Source of the DNA: Oscillospiraceae bacterium
GTDB lineage: Bacteria > Bacillota_A > Clostridia > Oscillospirales > Oscillospiraceae
NCBI GenBank assembly: GCA_017398105.1
Contig: JAFQHF010000058.1
Coordinates: 1 to 42,205 of the forward strand
Direction of reading: 5' to 3'
Length of the DNA stretch: 42,205 nt
Shown one piece after another: positions 4,278-41,370 of this stretch. Made by a program: the position numbers and the translations under genes. The notes beneath the pieces were generated by a model that saw nothing but the letters and a program-made list of their open reading frames with translations, was not told the DNA's origin and ran no database searches. Each line of letters opens with the position of its first letter. Within the stretch, counting starts at the first letter, position 1.

Positions 4278-4296
4278 TTCTATGTTATTCACAGTT

Positions 4297-4755
4297 TTAT
4301 TGTGAATGTTTTGTGAATAATTGCCACATAAGCTGTTCATAGCGGATCAGTTTCTTTAATTCCTCATCGGAATACTCTTCCAGCAACTCACTAACTTCGT
4401 TGTATGTCTGCTGATCGAATGCAATATGATTCTGGCAGAGCACCTTGCCTTTTTCCGTCAAGGAGATCGTGGTTACGCGCTTGTCCTGGGTGTCTTTAGT
4501 CCGAATCACATAACCCTTTTTCTCCAGTCGGGTAGCCATCTGAGTCACAGCTCCTTGCGTAACATTCAGCCGATTTGCCAACTCACTCATTGTCGGGTTA
4601 CTCATAGATCCAATTTCAACCACAAAGTGCACTTCCCGCATATATAGGCTATCATCTTCAACATATTTGTGCGGACGCTCAAAGTAGTTGGCTGTAACAG
4701 CAGAAGTTGTATTATGTTCTCGCAGAATTTTCTGCACCAGTTCTAATCTATTCAT
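4297..4755 (-). CDS. MarR family winged-helix transcriptional regulator
   Basis: 152 residues, typical MarR length. The helix-turn-helix runs about residues 56-82 (MSELANRLNVTQGAVTQMATRLEKKGYV) in two parts: TMSELANRLNVTQGAVTQM and RLEKKGYV. The wing follows with the conserved DxR-like DKR at 91-93 and TEKGK at 100-104. MarR proteins bind palindromic operators as dimers and usually release DNA on ligand binding. The gene is upstream of and co-directional with the lyase operon, and identical palindromes occur at its own promoter and the operon promoter, so autorepression plus operon repression is inferred. The ligand is unknown; an amino-acid-derived or sulfur compound would fit the target genes. 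Confidence 0.9.
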   Translation of the reverse strand: MNRLELVQKILREHNTTSAVTANYFERPHKYVEDDSLYMREVHFVVEIGSMSNPTMSELANRLNVTQGAVTQMATRLEKKGYVIRTKDTQDKRVTTISLTEKGKVLCQNHIAFDQQTYNEVSELLEEYSDEELKKLIRYEQLMWQLFTKHSQ

Positions 4756-4819
4756 TTCATATCTCCCACTTGGTTGTTCGTTTGCTCATAGTCATTATTT
4801 ACCGCATTATCCTACTTGC

Positions 4820-10442: not shown

Positions 10443-10475
10443 GATGCCTACTTAAGAGGAAATGAGGCTTTGTCC

Positions 10476-13016
10476 ATGGGTGAACAGTTCAAAAAGAAAC
10501 ATATTAGTGCTGGTTTGTTGGCCCATGTGGATGCGGGCAAGACGACTCTGAGCGAGGCGCTGCTGTATGTCAGCGGTGCCCGGCGGACACTGGGACGGGT
10601 GGATCATAAGGATGCGTTTCTGGACACCCACAGTCTGGAACGGGCCCGGGGAATCACCATTTTCTCCAAGCAGGCCATGCTGGAGACGGAAAGCCGGGCA
10701 ATTACTCTGGTGGATACGCCGGGCCACGTGGATTTTTCTGCGGAAACCGAGCGGACGATGTCCGTTCTGGACTGTGCGGTGCTGGTGATCAGCGGCACCG
10801 ACGGCATTCAGGCCCATACCCTGACACTCTGGCGGCTGTTGGAGCGGTATAGCATCCCCACCTTTTTGTTTATCAATAAGATGGATCTTCCCGGCATGGA
10901 GCGGGAAAAGCTGCTGAAGCAGCTGCAGGAGCAGCTGGGGGGCGGCTGTGTGGATTTTGACCAGGATGCGGATTCTCTGGCGGAAAACTGCGCCATGTGT
11001 GATGAAGCACTGCTGGAAAACTACCTGGAAAGCGGTGTGGTGACCCGGGGCAATATCCGGGGACTTATCGCAAAGCGGAAGCTGTTTCCCTGCTGCTTTG
11101 GCTCTGCGCTGAAGCTGGAAGGCGTGGAGCAGCTGCTGACGCTGCTGGATGCTTACGCGCCGGAAATGCAGTATCCTGCTGATTTTTCTGCCCGGGTGTA
11201 TAAGATTTCCCGGGACCCTCAGGGGAACCGCCTGACCTGGCTGAAGGTCACCGGCGGCAGCCTGAAGGTTCGCTCGGTGATGGCCTACAAAAACCGGAAG
11301 GGCGAATCCCGGGAAGAAAAGGCAGTGCAGCTGCGCTGCTATTCCGGTGAAAAATTCACTGCACCGGAGGAAGTTTTCGCCGGAGAGCTGGCAGCGGTCA
11401 CCGGCTGGTCAGAGACCTTTGTGGGGCAGGCTCTGGGCGCGGAGCCGGAGGGACTGACAGCGGCCCTGGAACCGGTCATGACCTACCGGGTGAACCTTCC
11501 CAAGGGGGCTGACCCGGCTGTGGCGGCACCCAAGCTGCGGCAGCTGGAGGAGGAAGATCCCCAGCTGCATCTGGTGACGGAAAACGGCCAGATCCATGTG
11601 CAGATCATGGGCAAGGTTCAGCTGGAAATTTTCCGCAGCCTGGTGCAGCAGCGGTTCAATCTGGACATTTCCCTGGACGACCAGAGAATTTTCTACAAAG
11701 AGACCATTGCGGATACGGTGGAGGGTGTGGGCCATTTTGAACCCCTGCGCCACTATGCTGAATGCCATCTGCTGCTGGAGCCTCTGCCCCAGGGAAGCGG
11801 ACTGATATTCGACACGGTATGTCCCACGGATGTGCTGGATATCCAGTACCAGAGGCTGATTCTGGGTCATCTGTCGGAAAAGACTCACCGGGGCGTGCTC
11901 ACCGGCGCCCCCATTACGGATATGAAGATCACCCTGCTGGTGGGCAAGGCCCATCTGAAGCATACCGAGGGCGGCGATTTCCGGCAGGCCACCTACCGGG
12001 CTGTCCGGCAGGGCCTGATGCAGGCAAAGTCCGTGCTTCTGGAGCCCTGGTATGCCTTTTCCTTGACCTGTCCCACGGAGCAGATCGGCCGGGCCATTAC
12101 GGATATTCGGGCTATGGGCGGCGAATTCGATTCCCCGGAGGCGGTGGGAAGCCTGTCCACTCTGAAGGGTCTGGTTCCGGCTTCAGAGGTGAAGGATTAT
12201 GCCGAAACCCTCGCGGCCTATACCCAGGGCCGGGGACGGCTGCAGCTGACCCTCCACGGCTATGCGCCCTGCCATAACCAGGAGGAAGTGGTATCGGAGA
12301 TCGGCTATGATCCGGAAGCGGATGTGGAGAATACACCGGATTCCGTATTCTGTGCCCACGGAGCCGGCTTCAATGTGAAATGGAACGAAGTCAAAGACCA
12401 CATGCATCTGGAAAGCGGTCTGAAGGAGGAAAAAGCACCCCAGATCATCACCCGGAACGTCCGCTATGATGACAAGGAGCTGGAAAAGATCATGGAGCGG
12501 GAATTCGGCGCCATCCGGCGGCCCCAGTACGGCGTAAAATCCACAAACCGGCCAGCCACCGAGGAGATCGTCATCCGGCCCCCAAAGCAGAAATACATCA
12601 TTGTGGACGGTTACAATGTGATCTTCGCCTGGGAGGAGCTGGCAGAGCAGGCCCGGTCTGATCTGGATGCTGCCCGGCGGCAGCTGTGCGATGCCCTTTC
12701 CAGCTTTGCGGGCTACACCAAATGCCGCCTGGTGGTGGTATTCGACGGCTACAAGCAGAAAGGAAACCCCGGCGAAAAGAGCCAGTTCCATAACATCCAG
12801 GTGGTCTTCACCAAAGAAGGGGAAACCGCCGATGCCTATATCGAAGCACTGGCCGATCAGATCGGCAATAACTATGCGGTTCGCGTAGCCTCTTCCGACG
12901 CACTGGTCCAGATCAGCTCCCTGCGCAGCGGTGTGCTGCGCATGAGCGCAAGAGAACTGCGCGCGGAAGTGGAAGCGGCCCGGAAAGAGATGGGGCAGCA
13001 TTTTAAGAAGGCTTGA
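10476..13016 (+). CDS. Tet(M)/EF-G-like translational GTPase fused to a YacP/Rae1-like NYN nuclease domain
   Basis: 846 residues from ATG at 10476 (GAGG 8 nt upstream; a TTG two codons earlier is less likely). Residues 1-640 are a ribosomal-protection-type GTPase: P-loop AHVDAGKTT (16-24), switch I ERARGIT (55-61), DTPGH (80-84), NKMD (134-137), then EF-G-like domains II-V. A linker leads to a C-terminal NYN/PIN-type domain from about residue 706: IIVDGYNVIFAW, VVVFDGYKQKG, VVFTKEGETADAYIE, RMSARELRAEVE. These match B. subtilis YacP (Rae1), a nuclease that cuts mRNA in the ribosomal A site. Tet proteins are about 640 residues, so the extra 200 residues are a true fusion. A GTPase that enters the A site could deliver the nuclease there. 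Drug resistance cannot be assumed. The gene is monocistronic with its own promoter. Confidence 0.9.
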   Translation: MGEQFKKKHISAGLLAHVDAGKTTLSEALLYVSGARRTLGRVDHKDAFLDTHSLERARGITIFSKQAMLETESRAITLVDTPGHVDFSAETERTMSVLDCAVLVISGTDGIQAHTLTLWRLLERYSIPTFLFINKMDLPGMEREKLLKQLQEQLGGGCVDFDQDADSLAENCAMCDEALLENYLESGVVTRGNIRGLIAKRKLFPCCFGSALKLEGVEQLLTLLDAYAPEMQYPADFSARVYKISRDPQGNRLTWLKVTGGSLKVRSVMAYKNRKGESREEKAVQLRCYSGEKFTAPEEVFAGELAAVTGWSETFVGQALGAEPEGLTAALEPVMTYRVNLPKGADPAVAAPKLRQLEEEDPQLHLVTENGQIHVQIMGKVQLEIFRSLVQQRFNLDISLDDQRIFYKETIADTVEGVGHFEPLRHYAECHLLLEPLPQGSGLIFDTVCPTDVLDIQYQRLILGHLSEKTHRGVLTGAPITDMKITLLVGKAHLKHTEGGDFRQATYRAVRQGLMQAKSVLLEPWYAFSLTCPTEQIGRAITDIRAMGGEFDSPEAVGSLSTLKGLVPASEVKDYAETLAAYTQGRGRLQLTLHGYAPCHNQEEVVSEIGYDPEADVENTPDSVFCAHGAGFNVKWNEVKDHMHLESGLKEEKAPQIITRNVRYDDKELEKIMEREFGAIRRPQYGVKSTNRPATEEIVIRPPKQKYIIVDGYNVIFAWEELAEQARSDLDAARRQLCDALSSFAGYTKCRLVVVFDGYKQKGNPGEKSQFHNIQVVFTKEGETADAYIEALADQIGNNYAVRVASSDALVQISSLRSGVLRMSARELRAEVEAARKEMGQHFKKA

Positions 13017-13464: not shown

Positions 13465-14877
13465 ATGGTATTTTCAAGCATCACCTTTGTGTTTATATTT
13501 CTGCCGTTGGTACTGACCGGCTACTACATTTTTTTAAGAAAAACAACCTGGCGTAATTATTGGCTCCTGGCTGCCAGTTTGGTGTTTTATGCTTGGGGAG
13601 AACCGCTGTATGTTTTTCTCATGTTGTTTTCTATTGCCTGCAATTATTTTCTGGGATTATGGCTGGGCTGCACGCCCAATAAGAGGCTGAGGCAGCTTAT
13701 CCTGATTCTGGCTGTGACATTGAATCTTGGAATCCTGTTCTATTTTAAATATTTCGACTTTTTTATCAGAACGGTAAACTCCGCTTTTCATTTGAACCTG
13801 AATGTGGGCTCAATTCCGCTGCCCATTGGCATTTCTTTTTTTACATTTCAGGCATTGAGCTATGTAATTGACGTATACCGGGGAACAGCGAAAGTGCAGA
13901 AAAATCCCTGCCATCTTGCGCTGTATATTGCGTTCTTTCCGCAATTGATCGCGGGGCCTATTGTACGGTATAATTCCATTGAACAGCAGATTGTACATCG
14001 TACGGTTTCACTGGATACATTCCAGGAGGGAATTTTCCGCTTTATCCAGGGTTTCGGCAAAAAAATTCTTCTGTCAAATGTGATGTCGATTACTGCGGAA
14101 CGCTTTTTCGCCCTGGCGGGTCAGAGAGAACTGTCCGTTTTGTCAGCGTGGCTTGGGGCGCTGGCCTATACATTCCAGATTTTCTTCGACTTTTCCGGCT
14201 ATTCCGATATGGCAATTGGTCTGGGAAAAATGTTTGGATTCAAATTTGAAGAAAACTTTCGCTATCCCTATCTTTCTCGCTCCATTTCTGAATTCTGGAA
14301 CCGCTGGCATATTTCACTTGGCCATTGGTTTCGGGATTATGTCTATTTTCCCCTGGGTGGCTCACGAGTCGGCAAGGGCAGACTTCTGCGCAATCTCTTT
14401 GTAGTATGGTTGCTGACGGGCATCTGGCATGGTGCGGCATGGCAATTTATTTTTTGGGGTATTGGATACGGCGTAATTATCAGCATCGAGAAGCTTACAA
14501 ACCTTCCGCGGAAACTGCAGAGTGCGGCATCGATTTTTGCATACAGGGTGTTTACCCTTTTGGTTGTCGTTTGCGGCTGGGTGTTATTTGGTTCCTCGGG
14601 ATTTCAAAATGCGTTTTATCAGATCGGTGCGATGTTCGGCATCGGGGCTGTCGGTTTTTGTGATACCCTGGCGATCTTTACAATCAGGGAGTACGGAATC
14701 TATTTCCTGCTGTCTGCCATCTTCTCCACACCCTTGTGCGAAAAAATAAATGGAAGAATCAAAAAGAATACCGTGTACTACATTGGCGGTACTGCTGTGT
14801 ACATGGCAATTCTTTTGCTGAGTATCTCTTTCCTACTGATCGATGCACACAATCCCTTTATCTATTTTAATTTTTGA
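13465..14877 (+). CDS. MBOAT family membrane O-acyltransferase (AlgI/DltB-like)
   Basis: 470 residues, about 10-12 membrane segments. Family motifs: FYAWGEP near the N-terminus, FPQLIAGPIVRY, WHISLGHWFRDYVYFPLGG and TGIWHGAAWQF, whose His322 is the expected catalytic histidine. AlgI/PatA-type MBOAT proteins move acyl (usually acetyl) groups from a cytoplasmic donor across the membrane to a partner that O-acylates an exopolysaccharide or cell-wall glycan. The partner should be the AlgJ/AlgX-like protein encoded directly downstream, 3 bp after the stop. ATG at 13465 follows AGGAG. A+T content is visibly higher than in the preceding gene. Confidence 0.93.
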   Translation: MVFSSITFVFIFLPLVLTGYYIFLRKTTWRNYWLLAASLVFYAWGEPLYVFLMLFSIACNYFLGLWLGCTPNKRLRQLILILAVTLNLGILFYFKYFDFFIRTVNSAFHLNLNVGSIPLPIGISFFTFQALSYVIDVYRGTAKVQKNPCHLALYIAFFPQLIAGPIVRYNSIEQQIVHRTVSLDTFQEGIFRFIQGFGKKILLSNVMSITAERFFALAGQRELSVLSAWLGALAYTFQIFFDFSGYSDMAIGLGKMFGFKFEENFRYPYLSRSISEFWNRWHISLGHWFRDYVYFPLGGSRVGKGRLLRNLFVVWLLTGIWHGAAWQFIFWGIGYGVIISIEKLTNLPRKLQSAASIFAYRVFTLLVVVCGWVLFGSSGFQNAFYQIGAMFGIGAVGFCDTLAIFTIREYGIYFLLSAIFSTPLCEKINGRIKKNTVYYIGGTAVYMAILLLSISFLLIDAHNPFIYFNF

Positions 14878-14886
14878 GGAATGGCT

Positions 14887-16074
14887 ATGAAGAAAATATT
14901 TAAAAGTAAATATTTGACTATGGTTTGCTTCCTTGTGCTGTTAATAAGCATGTTTCTGCTTGGCATTACGCCCGTTTACAACGCCATCCAAACAACGGCA
15001 TGGATCTATTCCAGCACCGGAGTGCTGGATTTCTCGTACGTTGAATCCGGATATATTGAAAACTTTGCAGGGAAAGAACACTTTTTAGCGCTCAATGGCA
15101 TTTTGCAGAACATAATTCAGGCCAGAGAGGTCAATGAGCGGTACAAGCAGGATAACGGACGCTTAACCTACGTAATCGGAGAATACGATATGGATGTTAT
15201 AGCGGCCAATACTGTTGCCTTCCGGGATGCCGTGGAGGAACAGGGAATTCCTATGGTTTATGTAAATACGCCATTTCAGATTCATGAAACAGATACGCAG
15301 CTTCCAATCGGCATTGAGGATTACTCCAATGATAATGCGGACCGTTTTCTTGCGTATCTGGAGAAAAATCAGGTTTCTGTGCTTGATCTTCGGGACTGCG
15401 TAGCGGAGGATGGGCTGGATCATTATGATCTGTATTTTAAAACAGACCATCACTGGAAACCGGAAGCCGGTTTGTGGGCTGTAGGTAAAATAACCGATTA
15501 TCTTGCCCGGCTGGACAAGAGCTTTGGCGTGGACAGAAGCATCCTGGACCAGGAAAACTATCATTTCGAAACCATGGAAAAGGTGTTTTTGGGCAGTTCA
15601 GGGCGCCGGGTTGGTACGACCTATGCCGGAATGGATGACCTGACTGTTATTACACCCGAATTTGACACGAATCTGATTTTTTCAGCCCCAAATGGGAATC
15701 TGCATCGGACAGGCAGTTTTGCGGAAACGTTTCTTTTCCCTGAAAACCTGATTGCGGACAATATTTTATATTCCAACAGTTATACGGTATATTGTGGCGG
15801 CAGCTACGATCTGCTGAACATTCAGAATCTCGGAACGGAAAGCAATGCAAATCTCAATCCTAAAAAAATCCTGTTAATCCGCGATTCCTACAGTGATGTG
15901 CTGATACCATTTTTATCACTTGTGTATTCTCAGATTCACGTGATCGATATGCGTGTTTTTACATCCGATTTGCTTGCCTATCTGGATGAATTCAGGCCGG
16001 ATCTGGTGCTTGTTGTCTATAATCCGGGTGCATATGAAAATAACAATCTGAATATGTTTGATTTTCTGAAATAA
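14887..16074 (+). CDS. AlgJ/AlgX-like (DHHW motif) acyltransferase partner protein
   Basis: 395 residues from ATG 14887; ATG 14881 is also in frame, but GAGGA touches it, so the later start has the better spacing. One N-terminal membrane anchor (about residues 9-30) places the rest outside the cell. The KTDHHW motif (Asp187-His188-His189-Trp190) and the late RDSYSD with Ser334 form the SGNH-hydrolase-like Ser/His/Asp set of AlgJ, AlgX and DHHW proteins. Such proteins accept the acyl group exported by an MBOAT and attach it to sugar hydroxyls. Gene order MBOAT then DHHW is the usual pair, so function in surface-glycan O-acylation is well supported. Confidence 0.85.
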   Translation: MKKIFKSKYLTMVCFLVLLISMFLLGITPVYNAIQTTAWIYSSTGVLDFSYVESGYIENFAGKEHFLALNGILQNIIQAREVNERYKQDNGRLTYVIGEYDMDVIAANTVAFRDAVEEQGIPMVYVNTPFQIHETDTQLPIGIEDYSNDNADRFLAYLEKNQVSVLDLRDCVAEDGLDHYDLYFKTDHHWKPEAGLWAVGKITDYLARLDKSFGVDRSILDQENYHFETMEKVFLGSSGRRVGTTYAGMDDLTVITPEFDTNLIFSAPNGNLHRTGSFAETFLFPENLIADNILYSNSYTVYCGGSYDLLNIQNLGTESNANLNPKKILLIRDSYSDVLIPFLSLVYSQIHVIDMRVFTSDLLAYLDEFRPDLVLVVYNPGAYENNNLNMFDFLK

Positions 16075-24626: not shown

Positions 24627-24739
24627 TTGCAAAAAATATGTTATGTTATGAGCGTGGAAAAATGTGCCGTATTGCGCCTTTTTTTCAGGTGCAGAGCACC
24701 CATCTTAGCATCCATCAATTTATATAAGGAGCTGTGACC

Positions 24740-25930
24740 ATGTATTTTCAGAAAAAACGCGTAATTGCAATGCTGCTGGCCGGTGGCCAGGGCAGCCGCC
24801 TGCATGTCCTGACGAGGAAGACCGCCAAGCCTGCGGTTCCCTTCGGCGGCAAGTACCGCATCATCGACTTCCCTCTGTCCAACTGTGTCAATTCCGGCAT
24901 TGATACCGTCGGCATCCTGACCCAGTATCAGCCTCTGGAGCTGAACGAGTACATCGGCAACGGCCAGCCCTGGGGCCTGAACAAGACCCATTCCTGCGCT
25001 CAGGTTCTGCCTCCCTACGAGCGTAACGACAAGAAGTCCGGTTGGTTCGAAGGCACCGCAAACGCCATCTACAAGAACATCGACTTCGTCGACCGCTTTG
25101 ACCCCGACTATGTTGTCATCCTGTCCGGTGACCACATCTATAAGATGGACTACAATGCCATGGTCGATTACCATGTCAAGCACAATGCTTCCGTTACCAT
25201 CGCTGTCCGTAACGTTCCTCTGGCTGAGGCTTCCCGTTTCGGCATCCTGAACACCAACCCCGACAACTCCATCTACGAGTTCGAGGAGAAGCCCCCCGTT
25301 CCCAAGTCCACCAACGCTTCCATGGGTATCTACTGCTTCAACTGGAGCGTCCTGCGTGAGGCCCTGATCGCTGACGAAGAGGACCCCAACTCCTCCAAGG
25401 ACTTCGGCAAGAACATCATCCCCAACCTGCTGAACGCCGGCCACAAGATGATGGCTTACCCCTTCGACGGCTACTGGAAGGACGTCGGCACCATCGCATC
25501 CCTGTGGGAAGCCAACATGGAACTGCTGGGCAAGGAGCCCGAGTTCGATCTGCGCGGCGGCAAGAACGAGACCATCTATGCCCGTAACTCCGCTCTGCCC
25601 TCCTCCTACATCGATGAGGATGCCAAGATCGTTGACTCCCTGGTTGCTGAAGGCTGCGAAGTCTACGGCACTGTCAAGCACTCCGTCGTTTCCATCGGCT
25701 GCACCATCGGCGCCGGCGCTCTGGTTGAGGACGCTGTCGTGATGCCCGGTGTCGTCATCGAGGATGGCGCAATCGTCCGTAACTGCATCCTGGGCGAAGG
25801 CTCCAAGGTCTGTAAGAACGCTGTTGTCGGCGGTCAGTTCGCAGAGGGCGAGAAGAGAGAAATCAGCGTTACCTCCAAGGGCGCTGTTATCGAGGCCAAC
25901 ACCGTGCTGAAGCCCGGTGACATGGTCTAA
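24740..25930 (+). CDS. glgC: Glucose-1-phosphate adenylyltransferase, GlgC subunit
   Basis: 396 residues from ATG 24740, 7 nt after AAGGAG. Makes ADP-glucose from ATP and glucose-1-phosphate, the committed step of bacterial glycogen synthesis. Nucleotidyltransferase motif [10 protein letters not shown] (11-20) then [20 protein letters not shown], catalytic [23 protein letters not shown], and FEEKP. The C-terminal third is a left-handed beta-helix (hexapeptide repeats) with IGAG and [10 protein letters not shown] turns. First gene of glgC-glgD-glgA, with strongly biased codons (CTG, AAC, TTC, CGT/CGC) indicating high expression. The promoter in 24627-24739 is not obvious. Confidence 0.96.
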
Positions 25931-25958
25931 TTTGGACTGTAATTAGGAGGATACCGCA

Positions 25959-27068
25959 ATGAACGTAATGGGTATTATTTTTACCAATGACGCTACCATG
26001 GGTGAGCTGACCAACAAACGCACCATGGCAAGCATTCCCTTCGGCGGCCGTTATCGTCAGGTGGACTTCGCTCTGTCCAACCTGTCCTGCGCCGGTGTCC
26101 GTCACGTGGGCATCATCTCCCGTCACAACTACCAGTCTCTGATGAACCACATCGGCGACGGTGAGGAGTGGGGCCTGGAGCTGGCTGAAGGCGGTCTGGA
26201 ATTCCTGACTCCCTATGCTCAGACCACCGTGGGCACCTACCGCGGCAAGCTGGAGTCCCTGAACAACGCTATGGACTTCCTGGAGTACGGCGAAGAGGAC
26301 GAGCTGGTCGTTATGATCGACTCCGCAGTCCTGTCCAACGTTGACCTGCGCGCCATCCTGGATGCACACGTTGCATCCGGCAAGGACATCACCGTTGTTA
26401 CCAAGGCCGGCATCTGCAACGGCGAGAAGAAGATCGACCTGGCTCTGAAGCTGGAGAACGGCGAAGTTGCTGATATGGTCGTTGACTATGCTGCTCCCGC
26501 TGAGTACGTCGCTTCCATGGATATCTTCGTCCTGAGCAAGAAGTGGCTGGTCAAGTCCGTCAAGGAAATGATCGCCCGCGACAAGTTCCACATGGACCGT
26601 GACCTGGTCATGGGCGGCTGGAACCGCGGCCTGGTTTCCGTCAACGTTTACGAGTTCGACGGCGTTGCCATGTTCAACGAGTCCGTGGAAGAGTACTTCT
26701 ACAACTCCATGGCTCTGATCAAGAAGGACGTCCGCGCTGATATCTTCAACGGCAACCACCCCGTTTACACCAAGGTCCGTGACCGCGTTCCCACCTACTA
26801 CGGTGAGACCAGCGAGATCGAGAACTCCCTGATCGCTGACGGCTGCATGCTGGAAGGCGAAGTTGAGGATTCCATCCTGTTCCGTGAAGTCACCATCGGC
26901 AAGGGCGCAGAGGTCGAGAACTGCATCCTGTTCAACGACGCTGTTGTCGGCGAAGGCGCTGAGCTGAAGTACGTCATCCTGGACAAGAACGTCACCGTTA
27001 CCCCCGGTGCAAAGCTGATCGGCACCAAGAAGAACCCCATCATCGTCAAGCGGGGTGAGACTGTATGA
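25959..27068 (+). CDS. glgD: Glucose-1-phosphate adenylyltransferase regulatory subunit GlgD
   Basis: 369 residues, ATG 25959 after AGGAGG. A GlgC paralogue that lacks the full GGxGxRL nucleotide loop (it starts MGIIFTNDATMGELTNKRT), which is the hallmark of GlgD, the non-catalytic partner in Firmicute GlgCD enzymes. IPFGGRYRQVDFALSNL and the C-terminal hexapeptide-repeat helix (IADGCMLEGEVEDSILF) are kept. It forms a heterotetramer with GlgC and raises activity. It follows glgC by 28 bp, and its stop overlaps the glgA start (ATGA). Confidence 0.95.
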   Translation: MNVMGIIFTNDATMGELTNKRTMASIPFGGRYRQVDFALSNLSCAGVRHVGIISRHNYQSLMNHIGDGEEWGLELAEGGLEFLTPYAQTTVGTYRGKLESLNNAMDFLEYGEEDELVVMIDSAVLSNVDLRAILDAHVASGKDITVVTKAGICNGEKKIDLALKLENGEVADMVVDYAAPAEYVASMDIFVLSKKWLVKSVKEMIARDKFHMDRDLVMGGWNRGLVSVNVYEFDGVAMFNESVEEYFYNSMALIKKDVRADIFNGNHPVYTKVRDRVPTYYGETSEIENSLIADGCMLEGEVEDSILFREVTIGKGAEVENCILFNDAVVGEGAELKYVILDKNVTVTPGAKLIGTKKNPIIVKRGETV

Positions 27069-28510
27069 AAATTGCAGTCTGCGCTTCCGAAGGCGCCCCC
27101 TACGCCAAATCCGGCGGTCTGGGCGACGTAATGGAGGCCCTGCCTGCTGCGCTGAGCCGCATTGAAGGCAATGAGGTCGCTCTGTTCCTGCCCTACTACA
27201 GCAAGATCAAGTCCAACGCAGCTTATGAGACCGAGAAGGTCGCTGAGTTCCGCGTTCAGCTGGGCTGGCGCCAGCAGTACTGCGCTGTCATGAAGCTGAC
27301 CAACCGCGCCGACAAGGTGCAGGTCTACTTCCTGGACAATGAGTACTACTTCGGCGGCCGTACCGGCGCTATCTACGGCGACATGGATGACGGTGAGCGG
27401 TTTGCTTACTTCTCCCGTGCCTGCCTGGATGCCATGGTGGCTCTGGACTACATCCCCGATGTGATCCAGTGCAACGACTGGCAGTGTGCTCTGATCCCCA
27501 CTTACCTGAAGGCTGTCTACCACGGTCAGTTCCCCAAGACCCGCTGCATGTACACCATCCACAACATCGAGTATCAGGGCTGGGCTAACGCCGCCTTCTT
27601 CGATGACATGCTGGGTCTGCCCTGGGAGTACCGCGGCACTCTGGACATGAACAACTCTGTCAATGTCATGAAGGGCGCCATCGAGACTGCCGACCTGGTC
27701 ACCACCGTTTCCGAGACCTATGCCCGCGAGCTGATGTATCCCTACTACGCTCACGGCCTGGACGGCATCCTGGCCAACAACTCCTGGAAGCTGACCGGTA
27801 TCACCAACGGTATCGACACCAATACCTTCAACCCCGAGACTGCAAAGGCACTGCCTGCTCACTTCAACGCCGAGACCTTCGTGGAAGGCAAGGCTGCTTG
27901 TAAGGCTGCTCTGCAGGAAGAGGTTGGTCTGCCCGTGAAGCCCGATGTGCCTCTGATGGTCATGGTCACCCGTCTGGCCGGCCACAAGGGCCTGGATCTG
28001 CTGTGCTACATCGCCCGCCGTCTGATGTGGGAAGAGGATGCTCAGCTGCTGATCCTGGGCACCGGCGAAGCACAGTATGAGACCTTCTTCAAGGATCTGG
28101 CTGTCCAGTTCCCCGAGCAGGTCGCTGCCAAGATCACCTTCAACCTGGGTCTGGCTGACCGCATCTACGCCGGCGGCGACATCTATCTGATGCCCTCCAA
28201 GTCCGAGCCCTGCGGCCTGTCCCAGATGAACGCCATGCGTTACGGCACCGTTCCTGTTGTCCACGCTACCGGCGGCCTGAAGGACACTGTTCCTCCCGTT
28301 GACGAGAACGGCGAGGGCGGTCTGGGCTTCACCTTCCAGAGCTACAACGCCGACGACTTCTACGCAGCCGTCAAGCGCGCTCTGGATCTGTACAACGACA
28401 ACCGCGAGGCATTCCGCGCCCTGCAGAAGAAGGAAATGGAAACCGACTTCAGCTGGGACGTCCCCGCTGGCAAGTACATGGAGCTGTTCAAGAACATGCT
28501 GTCCTGGTAA
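27065..28510 (+). CDS. glgA: Glycogen synthase (ADP-glucose)
   Basis: 481 residues, GT5 family, GT-B fold, usual length about 480. N-terminal KSGGLGDVMEALPAAL holds the ADP-glucose-binding K-x-G-G-L. Further motifs: TIHNIEYQG, CNDWQ, TNGIDTNTFNP, RLAGHKGLDLL, MPSKSEPCGLSQMNAMRYGT, with the catalytic Glu of the E-P-C-G-L loop, and ATGGLKDTV. Adds glucose from ADP-glucose to the growing alpha-1,4 chain. The ATG overlaps the glgD stop by 4 nt, so the two are translationally coupled. Branching enzyme and phosphorylase genes are not in the window. A terminator lies about 100 bp downstream. Confidence 0.97.
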   Translation: MKIAVCASEGAPYAKSGGLGDVMEALPAALSRIEGNEVALFLPYYSKIKSNAAYETEKVAEFRVQLGWRQQYCAVMKLTNRADKVQVYFLDNEYYFGGRTGAIYGDMDDGERFAYFSRACLDAMVALDYIPDVIQCNDWQCALIPTYLKAVYHGQFPKTRCMYTIHNIEYQGWANAAFFDDMLGLPWEYRGTLDMNNSVNVMKGAIETADLVTTVSETYARELMYPYYAHGLDGILANNSWKLTGITNGIDTNTFNPETAKALPAHFNAETFVEGKAACKAALQEEVGLPVKPDVPLMVMVTRLAGHKGLDLLCYIARRLMWEEDAQLLILGTGEAQYETFFKDLAVQFPEQVAAKITFNLGLADRIYAGGDIYLMPSKSEPCGLSQMNAMRYGTVPVVHATGGLKDTVPPVDENGEGGLGFTFQSYNADDFYAAVKRALDLYNDNREAFRALQKKEMETDFSWDVPAGKYMELFKNMLSW

Positions 28511-28772: not shown

Positions 28773-29504
28773 TTATTTGTCTTTGCAATAAATCCGGATA
28801 GCTTTCAGGGCGAATTCTCCGGTGCCCTTGCCGCCTGCGCTGTCGATGTTTTCCGTCATGGTGCCGCCGCCGGCGTACATTTCGCCCAGACCCAGCAGAA
28901 TCTGGCTGGTGCAGGTGTAGAAATGCTCTGTAAAGTATGCCTGCAGTTCTTTAACCCAGGTCTGGACGGCTTCGCAGCCGGGGTCTCTGTCCTTCATGGC
29001 ACCAAGGCGGACAAAAAAGTCCATAATCTGGGCATTGATGGCCTTGCCCTCTTCCTGAGTGCGGCCCTTTGCCTTCTGCTCGTATTCCTTGTAGGCATCG
29101 GTCTTTCCGTACAGGGTTTTGGCCTGTGCCTGGTATTCGTCGATCTTTTTGGGGTCCCAGTTATGAAATTCCAAATATCTCACTCCAATCAGTTTGATTC
29201 CGTTGGCCAGATGGATGCGGGTCTGCAGATGGTCTATTTTGGCCTTCAACAGTTCCACCTGCTGCTCCAGACATCGGTTCCGGTCAAAATCCGGGGCTTC
29301 CAGAATTCCCTGAATTTCCTTCAGGGGAAATCCGATCTCCCGGAACAGGAGGATCAGATATAGCTTTTCCTGAGCTTCTTCATCGTAAAGCCGATACCCA
29401 GCCTGGGTGATTTGCGTGGGCTTCAGCAGTCCGATGGCATCGTAATGATGCAGCGTGCGCACGCTGATGTGGGCGGTTTTGGCCAGCTCGTTTACGGTTT
29501 TCAT
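28773..29504 (-). CDS. MerR family regulator with TipAS-like effector domain
   Basis: 243 residues. The N-terminal winged helix is MerR type (TVNELAKTAHISVRTLHHYD, then IGLLKP, GYRLYDEEAQEKL), followed by the dimerisation helix near residues 75-105. The C-terminal about 140 residues match the TipAS/albicidin-binding type domain (YEQKAKGRTQEEG, then MDFFVRLGAMKD), which in TipA traps thiopeptides and other ligands. ATG 29504 is preceded by AGGAGGG. Its promoter has the 19-bp spacer that MerR proteins act on, so it is self-regulated. It is divergent from a metallo-hydrolase gene whose promoter is adjacent. The ligand is unknown. Confidence 0.9.
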   Translation of the reverse strand: MKTVNELAKTAHISVRTLHHYDAIGLLKPTQITQAGYRLYDEEAQEKLYLILLFREIGFPLKEIQGILEAPDFDRNRCLEQQVELLKAKIDHLQTRIHLANGIKLIGVRYLEFHNWDPKKIDEYQAQAKTLYGKTDAYKEYEQKAKGRTQEEGKAINAQIMDFFVRLGAMKDRDPGCEAVQTWVKELQAYFTEHFYTCTSQILLGLGEMYAGGGTMTENIDSAGGKGTGEFALKAIRIYCKDK

Positions 29505-29645: not shown

Positions 29646-30419
29646 ATGCGCATGAAACTGGTGACGCTGATAGAAAATACAACCGGCCGGACTGACCTGG
29701 CTGCAGAGCACGGCCTGTCCGTATATATCGAGACCGGGAGCAAAAAAATTCTGTTCGATGCCGGGCAGTCTGCCGCATTTGCGGATAACGCCCAAAAGCT
29801 GGGGGTTGACCTGGCAGCAGTGGATTTTGCGGTACTGTCCCACGGTCATTACGACCACGGCGGCGGGCTGAAACGCTTTCGGGAAAGCAATCCCGATGCA
29901 CCCGTTTATCTGAGCCGCCAGGCCTTTGGCAGGCACTGCAATGCCGCGGGAAAAGACATCGGACTGGATACGGGGCTGATGGGGGAGAAGAATCTGATCT
30001 TTGCGGAGGACGGTCTGAAAATCGCACCGGGGCTGACCCTGTACAGCTGCAATGACCGGGTACGGGAGTATCCCACCGACACCTCCGGCATGACGGCAAA
30101 CGGCGAACCGGAAGCGTTTGCGCATGAGCAGTATCTTCTGATCGGGGAAGGACAGAAGCGTATTCTGATCAGCGGCTGCTCCCACAAGGGGATTTTGAAT
30201 ATTGCGGATTGGTTCCGTCCGGATATCCTGATCGGCGGCTTTCACTTCATGAAGATCCGGGACGAAGTATTTCTGAAATCCGCAGCCGAAGCACTGCTAG
30301 CCTGTCCCACGGTCTATTACACCGGCCACTGCACGGGAGAAGAACAGTTCGCGTTTCTGAAGCAAATCATGGGCGACCGGCTGCACCGCATTCAGACCGG
30401 CACTGTGCTGGAACTGTAA
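29646..30419 (+). CDS. Metallo-beta-lactamase-fold hydrolase (COG1237-like)
   Basis: 257 residues. Metal motif SHGHYDHGGG with His66, His68, Asp70 and His71, further SGCSHKGI and GGFH/GHCTGE histidines. The order resembles the MJ0937/COG1237 group, whose archaeal members make the methanopterin precursor; bacterial members are unassigned. It should be a cytoplasmic hydrolase with two zinc or iron ions. ATG 29646 fits best with AGGAAG about 8 nt upstream; ATG 29652 is an alternative. A small hairpin (29604-29625) lies in the leader. Divergent from the MerR gene, which may regulate it. Confidence 0.82.
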   Translation: MRMKLVTLIENTTGRTDLAAEHGLSVYIETGSKKILFDAGQSAAFADNAQKLGVDLAAVDFAVLSHGHYDHGGGLKRFRESNPDAPVYLSRQAFGRHCNAAGKDIGLDTGLMGEKNLIFAEDGLKIAPGLTLYSCNDRVREYPTDTSGMTANGEPEAFAHEQYLLIGEGQKRILISGCSHKGILNIADWFRPDILIGGFHFMKIRDEVFLKSAAEALLACPTVYYTGHCTGEEQFAFLKQIMGDRLHRIQTGTVLEL

Positions 30420-40419: not shown

Positions 40420-41370
40420 ATGAGCTTTACTTACCGTGGCCTGCAGGCCACTTTGGACCGTCATATCGTCACCGATGCGGAGATCGACCGCCAGATGGAG
40501 CGGCTGCAGCAGCAGACACCCCGGATCGCAGTGGTTACCGACCGTCCCACCCAGAACGGTGACGAGGTGGTGCTGAATTATGCCGGCTTCTGTGACGGCG
40601 TCCAGTTCCCCGGCGGTACTGCCGAGATGCAGACCCTGGTTCTGGGCAGCGGCACCTTTATCCCCGGCTTTGAGGAGCAGCTGCTGGACAAGGTTCCCGG
40701 CGAGGAAGTGTCTGTGAAGGTCATGTTCCCGGCCCAGTACCATGCTGCCGACCTGGCAGGCAAGGCTGCGGAGTTCCGCTGCAAGCTCCTGGAGATCCGG
40801 GTGAAGACCGCCTATGAGCTGGACGATGTGTTTGCAAAGGAAGTAGGCGGCTGCGAGACGTTTGATGAAATGCGTCGGAAGCTGGGCGAAAGCCTTCAGG
40901 CTTACACCGATGAACGGGGCGAGATGGATCTGCAGGACCGCCTGCTGCGTCAGGCTGCCGCTACCCTGGAATTCAACCCCTCCGAAAAGCAGATCGAAGC
41001 GGAGATGGACGAGCAGATGCAGAACCTGAAGGCTCAGCTGGCCCAGCAGGGACTGTCCATGGAAATGTACTGCCAGTTTATGAGCACCACTGAGGAAAAG
41101 CTGCGGGAGGATTCCCGCGCCAATGCAGAGGCTTCCGTCCGCATCCAGGCTGCCATCGAGCAGATCGTTTATACCGAAAATCTGGAGGCAACCAAGGAGG
41201 AGATCGGTCAGGCCCTGGCCATCATTGCCCGCCAGAACAATATGACTCTGGAGCAGCTGAAGCCCCATATCGATGCCGAATTTGAGGCCGCTGTGGTGCG
41301 CAGCGTGCTGACCACCAAGGTCATGCGGCTGATCCGCGACAATGCGGTTATTTCCGGGTCTGAGGGGTAA
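40420..41370 (+). CDS. Trigger factor-like chaperone/PPIase without ribosome-binding domain
   Basis: 316 residues (full trigger factor is about 430), ATG 40420 after AAGGAG. Residues 1-35 match the linker before the PPIase domain (TDAEIDRQMERLQQQ). Residues about 40-130 are the FKBP-type domain (GDEVVLNYAGFCDGVQFPGG, then FIPGFEEQLLDKVPGEEVSV and FPAQYHAADLAGKAAEF), and 130-316 is the helical chaperone arm. The N-terminal domain with the GFRxGKxP ribosome contact is absent, and its own promoter and Shine-Dalgarno site argue against recent truncation. It should fold or hold proteins off the ribosome. A complete tig may exist elsewhere. Confidence 0.85.
   Translation: MSFTYRGLQATLDRHIVTDAEIDRQMERLQQQTPRIAVVTDRPTQNGDEVVLNYAGFCDGVQFPGGTAEMQTLVLGSGTFIPGFEEQLLDKVPGEEVSVKVMFPAQYHAADLAGKAAEFRCKLLEIRVKTAYELDDVFAKEVGGCETFDEMRRKLGESLQAYTDERGEMDLQDRLLRQAAATLEFNPSEKQIEAEMDEQMQNLKAQLAQQGLSMEMYCQFMSTTEEKLREDSRANAEASVRIQAAIEQIVYTENLEATKEEIGQALAIIARQNNMTLEQLKPHIDAEFEAAVVRSVLTTKVMRLIRDNAVISGSEG

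Follow-up and report, generated by a model that had tools for sequence, protein, structure and literature searches.

The window (the whole stretch of DNA that was analyzed, 42,205 nucleotides in length) was found to encode, at 10476-13016 on the forward strand, an EF-G-like GTPase joined through a Cys/His tail and a flexible linker to a Rae1/YacP NYN domain, all within a single unbroken frame of 846 aa plus stop. The frame opens with an ATG at 10476; an alternative TTG start is possible at 10470, and purine-rich GAGG stretches lie just 5′ of the gene. Upstream of the gene lies an MFS transporter; downstream lies an MBOAT/AlgX pair (13465-16074, +), in which the MBOAT acyltransferase comes first and the AlgX-like protein second and which likely serves polysaccharide O-acetylation. 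Elsewhere in the window we observed: (i) a likely glycogen cluster at 24734-28510 (+), with two hexapeptide-ended nucleotidyl transferases (GlgC/GlgD-like) and a starch synthase; (ii) a MerR regulator with a TipAS antibiotic-recognition domain at 28773-29504 (−), beside which lies a metallo-beta-lactamase-fold protein at 29646-30419; and (iii) a 316-aa protein at 40420-41370 (+) with FKBP and trigger-factor C-terminal domains, which is presumably shorter than the usual trigger factor.

Domains and families were assigned with Pfam and NCBIfam models at their curated cut-offs. The GTPase half was found to comprise a G domain at residues 7-229 (10494-11162, +; Pfam GTP_EFTU, with P-loop, DTPGH, and NKMD), EF-G domain II at residues 237-315 (11184-11420, +), domain III at residues 332-400 (11469-11675, +; EFG_III), domain IV at residues 405-518 (11688-12029, +; Pfam EFG_IV), and domain V at residues 520-602 (12033-12281, +; Pfam EFG_C), with domains II and III slightly below their Pfam cut-offs (21.6 of 27 and 25.1 of 27, respectively). 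The G motifs and EF-G domains I to V place the protein among the EF2-family translational GTPases; it was not assigned to elongation factor G proper, as it reached 275 of the 659 bits set as the NCBIfam EF-G cut-off. When residues 2-621 were compared with PDB folds, an EF-G-like fold with a full domain IV was returned; the best 50 rows were without Tet(M) or Tet(O) chains, a result that excludes nothing. In the family alignment of 80 rows (79 genome loci plus the window protein), Lys22 of the G domain was present in 80/80 rows and His84 in 79/80, while Asn134 of NKMD was present in 50/80 (T in 26, S in 4). The two halves are separated by a variable linker at residues 652-701 (12429-12578, +), with pLDDT <50 at 652-665 and 684-701 and a short helix at 666-677, and the spacing from H644 to the NYN start ranged from 62 to 121 residues over the 80 rows.

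The fusion of a GTPase with a Rae1-like NYN domain, which was the central observation of the original prediction, is confirmed. Every motif quoted there was found in the translated frame, the Pfam domains of both halves lie within it, and neither of the circumstances held to speak against it (nuclease acids out of register with Rae1, or a fusion missing from relatives and due to a frameshift) was encountered; the acids align, and relatives are fused. A frameshift join or assembly artifact was excluded, since EF-G domains and NYN_YacP occurred together in all 120 rows listed (query included, the best 120 of 7988 matches to the C-terminal third) and 79 of 80 related genome loci gave one full-length frame, the sole locus left out (L021) having one in-frame stop. 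When the 80 loci most similar to the window were sorted by NCBI ranks, 47 fell to Oscillospiraceae, 6 to Lachnospiraceae, and one each to Acutalibacteraceae, Christensenellaceae, and Eubacteriaceae, with 24 being without a family. As had been anticipated, the database search found the fusion again in related Firmicutes, where it is labeled as a tetracycline-resistance protein with the names TetM, TetW, TetO, and TetS.

These names speak for an explanation in which the fusion protects ribosomes from tetracycline (or another A-site drug) and its RNase domain adds to resistance, a role by RNase action having been suggested by Atkinson 2015 (PMC4342817). The top NCBIfam model was indeed tet_protect (394 of 775 bits), and the Tet(M) model gave 212 of 1420 bits; among the 25 of 36 families shown, all Tet cut-offs were failed, whereas a control Tet(M) scored 880 on tet_protect and 1485 on the Tet(M) model and passed its own. 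The tip of domain IV was found to differ as well. Loop I (residues 417-429, GVGHFEPLRHYAE; 11724-11762, +) and loop III (residues 490-503, GKAHLKHTEGGDFR; 11943-11984, +), both placed by alignment, are near-invariant in the fusions as GHFEPLRHYAE and AHxKHTxGGDFR, respectively, and are also present in unfused relatives. In loop I, H420, E422, P423, L424, H426, Y427, A428, and E429 were retained in 80/80 rows and R425 in 78/80; in loop III, A492 and K495 to R503 were retained in 80/80 and H493 in 79/80. That two loops are almost frozen over 80 rows points to strong selection on the tip. The window reads GHFEPLRHYAE in loop I where Tet(M) has PPNPFWASIG and EF-G has SGGRGQYG, and G-K-A-H-L-K-H-T-E-G-G-D-F-R in loop III where Tet(M) has G504-L-Y-Y-S-P-V-S-T-P-A-D-F-R, such that A-H-x-K-H-T replaces Y-Y-S-P-V-S and no Tet-type loop III was found at the tip. 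Judged from this alignment, the domain IV tip of the fusion family is of its own type rather than a Tet tip, which is new here. A fused protein with an altered tip (EHARHTEGGDFW), a very divergent NYN domain, and a tail in which C626 and H628 are replaced was observed at one locus (L144).

Loop III is the part of domain IV proposed to displace tetracycline, and Tet(M) with S508A or with the triple change S508A/P509A/V510A can stay active, according to PMC4750697; because such loop III mutants can remain active, drug protection is not disproved by the loop sequence alone. The distribution of the gene also bears on the question: matches over 80% of the protein were found in 2 of 72,556 plasmid records (Monoglobus pectinilyticus and Agathobacter rectalis), yet the fusion is lineage-wide, in 105 of 291 Clostridia genomes, and a mobile resistance gene was rejected as the general picture on this comparison. 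Among 50,697 phage records, 11 matched the NYN half, some of which are perhaps bacterial contigs. On the Tet model scores and loop III, we rejected Tet(M)-type drug protection as the main reading and consider protection against tetracycline or another A-site drug improbable; the Tet(M)-type description and the drug-bound ribosome of the original prediction were thus not borne out.

Domain V leads into a C-terminal extension at residues 588-645 (12237-12410, +), in which C599 (79/80 fused rows), C626 (80/80), H628 (80/80), and H644 (79/80) form a candidate zinc site. The extension folded by itself reached a pTM of only 0.34. When a profile of the extension (A2, 31 rows) was searched against the 291 Clostridia genomes, 122 were matched, mostly by fusions; in 16 genomes the GTPase ended near the extension end, and the 17 unfused loci fetched from these encode proteins of 640-727 aa. 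One further unfused case (G245) is a 293-aa frame with a stop. Residue 628 was Lys in 12 of the 17 unfused relatives, 10 of which have a Cys right after H644, a position at which Cys occurred in 0/80 fused rows. The swap is not strict, as this Cys is also present in 4 of the 5 unfused relatives that have His at 628, and two unfused GTPases (L134 and L135) show neither H628 nor the Cys after H644. A four-ligand zinc site would permit the Cys/His/Lys pattern observed. Among the 120 matches listed, close relatives in Clostridium have been annotated as GTP-binding protein, elongation factor G, or TetM, and Clostridium fermenticellae was found to have two unfused GTPase copies (L126 and L127) in one genome.

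The nuclease half was recognized as NYN_YacP (Rae1) at residues 708-845 (12597-13010, +; E-value 5.6e-44, 150.5 bits against a cut-off of 24.6), and a search of all PDB sequences at E up to 1 returned only B. subtilis YacP/Rae1 (5MQ9, 7e-24; 5MQ8, 8.6e-24). Residues D711, D757, E783, D786, and D808 align with Rae1 D7, D53, E78, D81, and D104 (positions counted from the PDB alignment), and D711, N714, D757, D786, and D808 were conserved in 80/80 rows and E783 in 78/80; the Rae1-type active site that had been predicted is therefore in place. D7 and D81 are reportedly the residues mutated in the original Rae1 work. By sequence, the nuclease half is Rae1. An alternative would have the NYN domain trim rRNA or tRNA, with the GTPase as an assembly factor. 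The EF-G-like fold with a full domain IV found here is usually seen in factors that work on assembled ribosomes, which speaks against such a role, as does the closest characterized relative of the domain. This relative, Rae1, is an mRNA endonuclease of the ribosomal A site (PMC12320835, PMC6613710), and trimming appears very improbable, even though rRNA/tRNA maturation was the first proposal for NYN domains (as cited in PMC4342817). The full C-terminal tail, a usual Rae1 feature not known to be a defining one, was not found in the window: from SAREL to the end, 21 of 24 standalone Rae1 proteins have 50-53 aa (the motif search missed three), the fused rows have 20-62 aa (n = 80), and the window protein has 23 aa. 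The tail change R166P is listed among the B. subtilis efp suppressors in which, according to the authors, Rae1 or YacO is no longer functional (PMC6613710). The fused enzyme may dispense with the Rae1 tail since the GTPase supplies the ribosome contact.

We also investigated how the fusion and standalone Rae1 are distributed over the 291 genomes, which represent the class of Eubacterium sp. 14-2 (G004; Clostridia at NCBI). PF05991 was detected in 189 of the 291, and one genome (G256) was dropped for a match below the cut-off. In the remaining 188, NYN_YacP above the cut-off was fused in 105, standalone in 83, and present in both forms in none. The 105 comprise 98 with a frame of at least 780 aa, six with shorter frames holding both halves, and G232, which was counted as fused; its GTPase and NYN pieces sit at two contig ends, and genuinely separate genes were ruled out on this ground. 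Fused and standalone cases were told apart by frame length, and the frames of 28 of the 83 standalone cases measured 160-217 aa. One match above the cut-off was found in 104 of the 105 fusion genomes, the other (G141) having two fused copies, and the second NYN_YacP match in each of G144, G209, and G250 was weak, short, and below the cut-off. Likewise, eight fusion genomes (of which G004 is shared with the 291-genome sample) had one NYN_YacP match each, with no second copy in 8/8. The unfused GTPase occurred together with standalone Rae1 in 10 of the 83 genomes and without NYN_YacP above the cut-off in 7 of the 291 (G245 included), which may be incomplete; neither the GTPase nor NYN_YacP was detected in 96 of the 291. 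The genomes carried no completeness scores, making all absences soft. Of the 23 standalone Rae1 loci examined, 22 have rlmB and/or sigH next to them, as in B. subtilis. With 105 fused, 83 standalone, and none with both, the fusion is, on this distribution, a stand-in for the separate Rae1 of other bacteria, a finding that is new here.

The origin of the fusion was examined with two quick trees without bootstrap, in which long branches were flagged: an NYN tree of 62 of 115 rows (38 fused, 24 standalone) and a GTPase tree of 51 rows (31 fused, 17 unfused, 3 outgroup). In the NYN tree, 37 of the 38 fused rows and one standalone Rae1 formed one group (SH-aLRT 100), and in the GTPase tree all 31 fused rows formed one group (support 99). 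The divergent fused protein with the altered tip (L144, from G240) had its GTPase within the fused group, whereas its NYN domain branched elsewhere in the tree, at the end of a very long branch. The standalone Rae1 nested in the fused group (L104) belongs to G251 (L152, G251:C1:390500-400500, 4289-4808, −) and is the sole exception to the rlmB/sigH context, lying by eye near an aspartyl-tRNA synthetase-gatCAB-like cluster; the GTPase of this genome (L134) groups with the unfused GTPases, and both halves are separate genes. G251 is thus a candidate for escape of the nuclease from a fusion. As these trees indicate, there was one principal fusion that subsequently spread, with a few odd cases, which is likewise new here.

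The same distribution bears on whether an EF-G paralog and an ordinary Rae1 do two independent jobs and are joined for co-expression only. This would fit with (i) the 7 genomes with an unfused GTPase and no NYN_YacP above the cut-off, and the 73 of 188 with standalone NYN_YacP and no GTPase; (ii) a linker that is long and variable; and (iii) the separate halves of G251, the Rae1 of which is nested in the fused group. It fits less well with the 105 of 105 fusion genomes that lack a standalone NYN_YacP above the cut-off, with there being one candidate reversal (G251), and with the tail lengths of fused and standalone proteins, which look as if the GTPase had assumed a tail role. On balance, co-expression as the only reason for the join seems unlikely.

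The commonest conserved neighbor of the fusion was found to be a protein of 246-253 aa encoded directly downstream on the same strand, ylmH. It is the next gene in 21 of 80 fused loci (16 identified by clustering the 79 loci and the window, and 5 more by tblastn), with at least 800 bp of downstream sequence available in 75 of the 79 loci measured; the tblastn search over the loci showed it to be absent from the window. This neighborhood is likewise new here. YlmH is a factor in B. subtilis ribosome quality control (RQC; PMC11317155). In the first 16 loci, measured from the first ATG of the frame, ylmH shares 11 to 23 bases with the 3′ end of the fusion gene in 10 cases, and a gap of 1 to 239 bases separates the two genes in 6. 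YlmH_RBD was above its cut-off in 4/4 proteins tested, three beside fusions and one encoded divergently near an unfused GTPase (L140). The fused proteins of the 16 ylmH-linked loci share 53-80% pairwise identity, and the linkage, limited to part of the family, could be a single inherited arrangement.

Overall, we think it probable that the fusion is a chromosomally encoded translation factor which acts at ribosomes that have stalled, with its tethered Rae1 cutting A-site mRNA and so feeding ribosome rescue. Rae1 acts in the A site, and domain IV of EF-G-like factors enters the same place. The proposal that the GTPase places the nuclease in the A site nonetheless appears too simple; domain IV itself would fill the A site, so the GTPase and the nuclease would have to act in turn. 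The GTP-bound fusion protein would bind the factor site of a ribosome that has stalled or is slow, its His/Arg/Lys-rich tip would test or clear the decoding site, domain IV would withdraw once GTP is hydrolyzed, and the tethered NYN domain would then cut the A-site mRNA. Ribosomes emptied of A-site mRNA in this way could be taken up by trans-translation or, once split, by RqcH/YlmH tailing. With a linking stretch of 62-121 residues, the nuclease could move in once the GTPase has withdrawn, or could act on an adjacent ribosome. As for the predicted tie to ribosome rescue, it stands as plausible and consistent with the mutual exclusion of standalone Rae1 and with the ylmH linkage in part of the family; its drug-bound part does not. 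Counter to this reading, (i) the two halves are not strictly dependent on one another, as the 7 GTPase-alone genomes and the 10/83 co-occurrence show; (ii) the asparagine of NKxD is replaced by T or S in 30/80 rows; and (iii) the ylmH linkage is partial and absent in the window, and the AF2 model of the fusion (pTM 0.61) does not fix the relative placement of the domains. More tentatively, and with somewhat less than even confidence, the family may be a hitherto unrecognized rescue module of Clostridia that arose by a single fusion of Rae1 to a GTPase subfamily with a distinct decoding-site tip and Cys/His tail; the fused protein would have taken over from the standalone enzyme and, in part of the lineage, would share an operon with ylmH, and GTP hydrolysis would gate A-site entry of the nuclease and make stall clearing GTP-licensed.

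To our knowledge, it is unclear how Rae1 gets to the A site and selects ribosomes, and we are not aware of any bacterial translational GTPase for which a built-in nuclease has been demonstrated. Here, Rae1 is tethered to the kind of factor that visits the A site, and the tether is kept across a wide branch of Clostridia; Rae1 targeting thus becomes directly testable by separating the halves. This reading would also correct the tetracycline-resistance label of the fusion, by which counts of such resistance genes in gut metagenomes are inflated.

The architecture has been in print since 2015, with another function proposed. Atkinson 2015 (PMC4342817) described Tet proteins of ten Clostridiales species that had gained a YacP-like NYN RNase domain and listed the ability to act as an rRNA RNase for testing; these have the same domain combination and very probably belong to the same family. 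In the accessible portions of that paper the fusion is read as a Tet variant, with no analysis of tip, replacement, origin, or neighbors, and no functional study or later work on the fusion was found among open-licence papers. Compared with Tet(M)/Tet(O), the fusion is likewise an EF-G-like GTPase (28-29% identity over residues 3-598) but has different loops I and III, a Cys/His C-terminal extension, and a nuclease, and fails the Tet models. Elongation factor G is alike in fold and G motifs and differs in both tip loops, loop I of the fusion being 4 residues shorter. The 17 unfused clostridial GTPases fetched have both tip loops, with small changes, and the Cys/His extension in common with the fusion, but stop at or soon after H644 without a nuclease, 14 of the 17 with the Cys after H644. 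B. subtilis Rae1/YacP (5MQ8, 5MQ9) shares the NYN domain, the aligned active-site acids, and the single copy per genome; whereas Rae1/YacP is a standalone protein of ~170 aa encoded beside rlmB/sigH with a 51-aa tail from SAREL, the window protein is joined to a GTPase, has other neighbors, and ends in a 23-aa tail.
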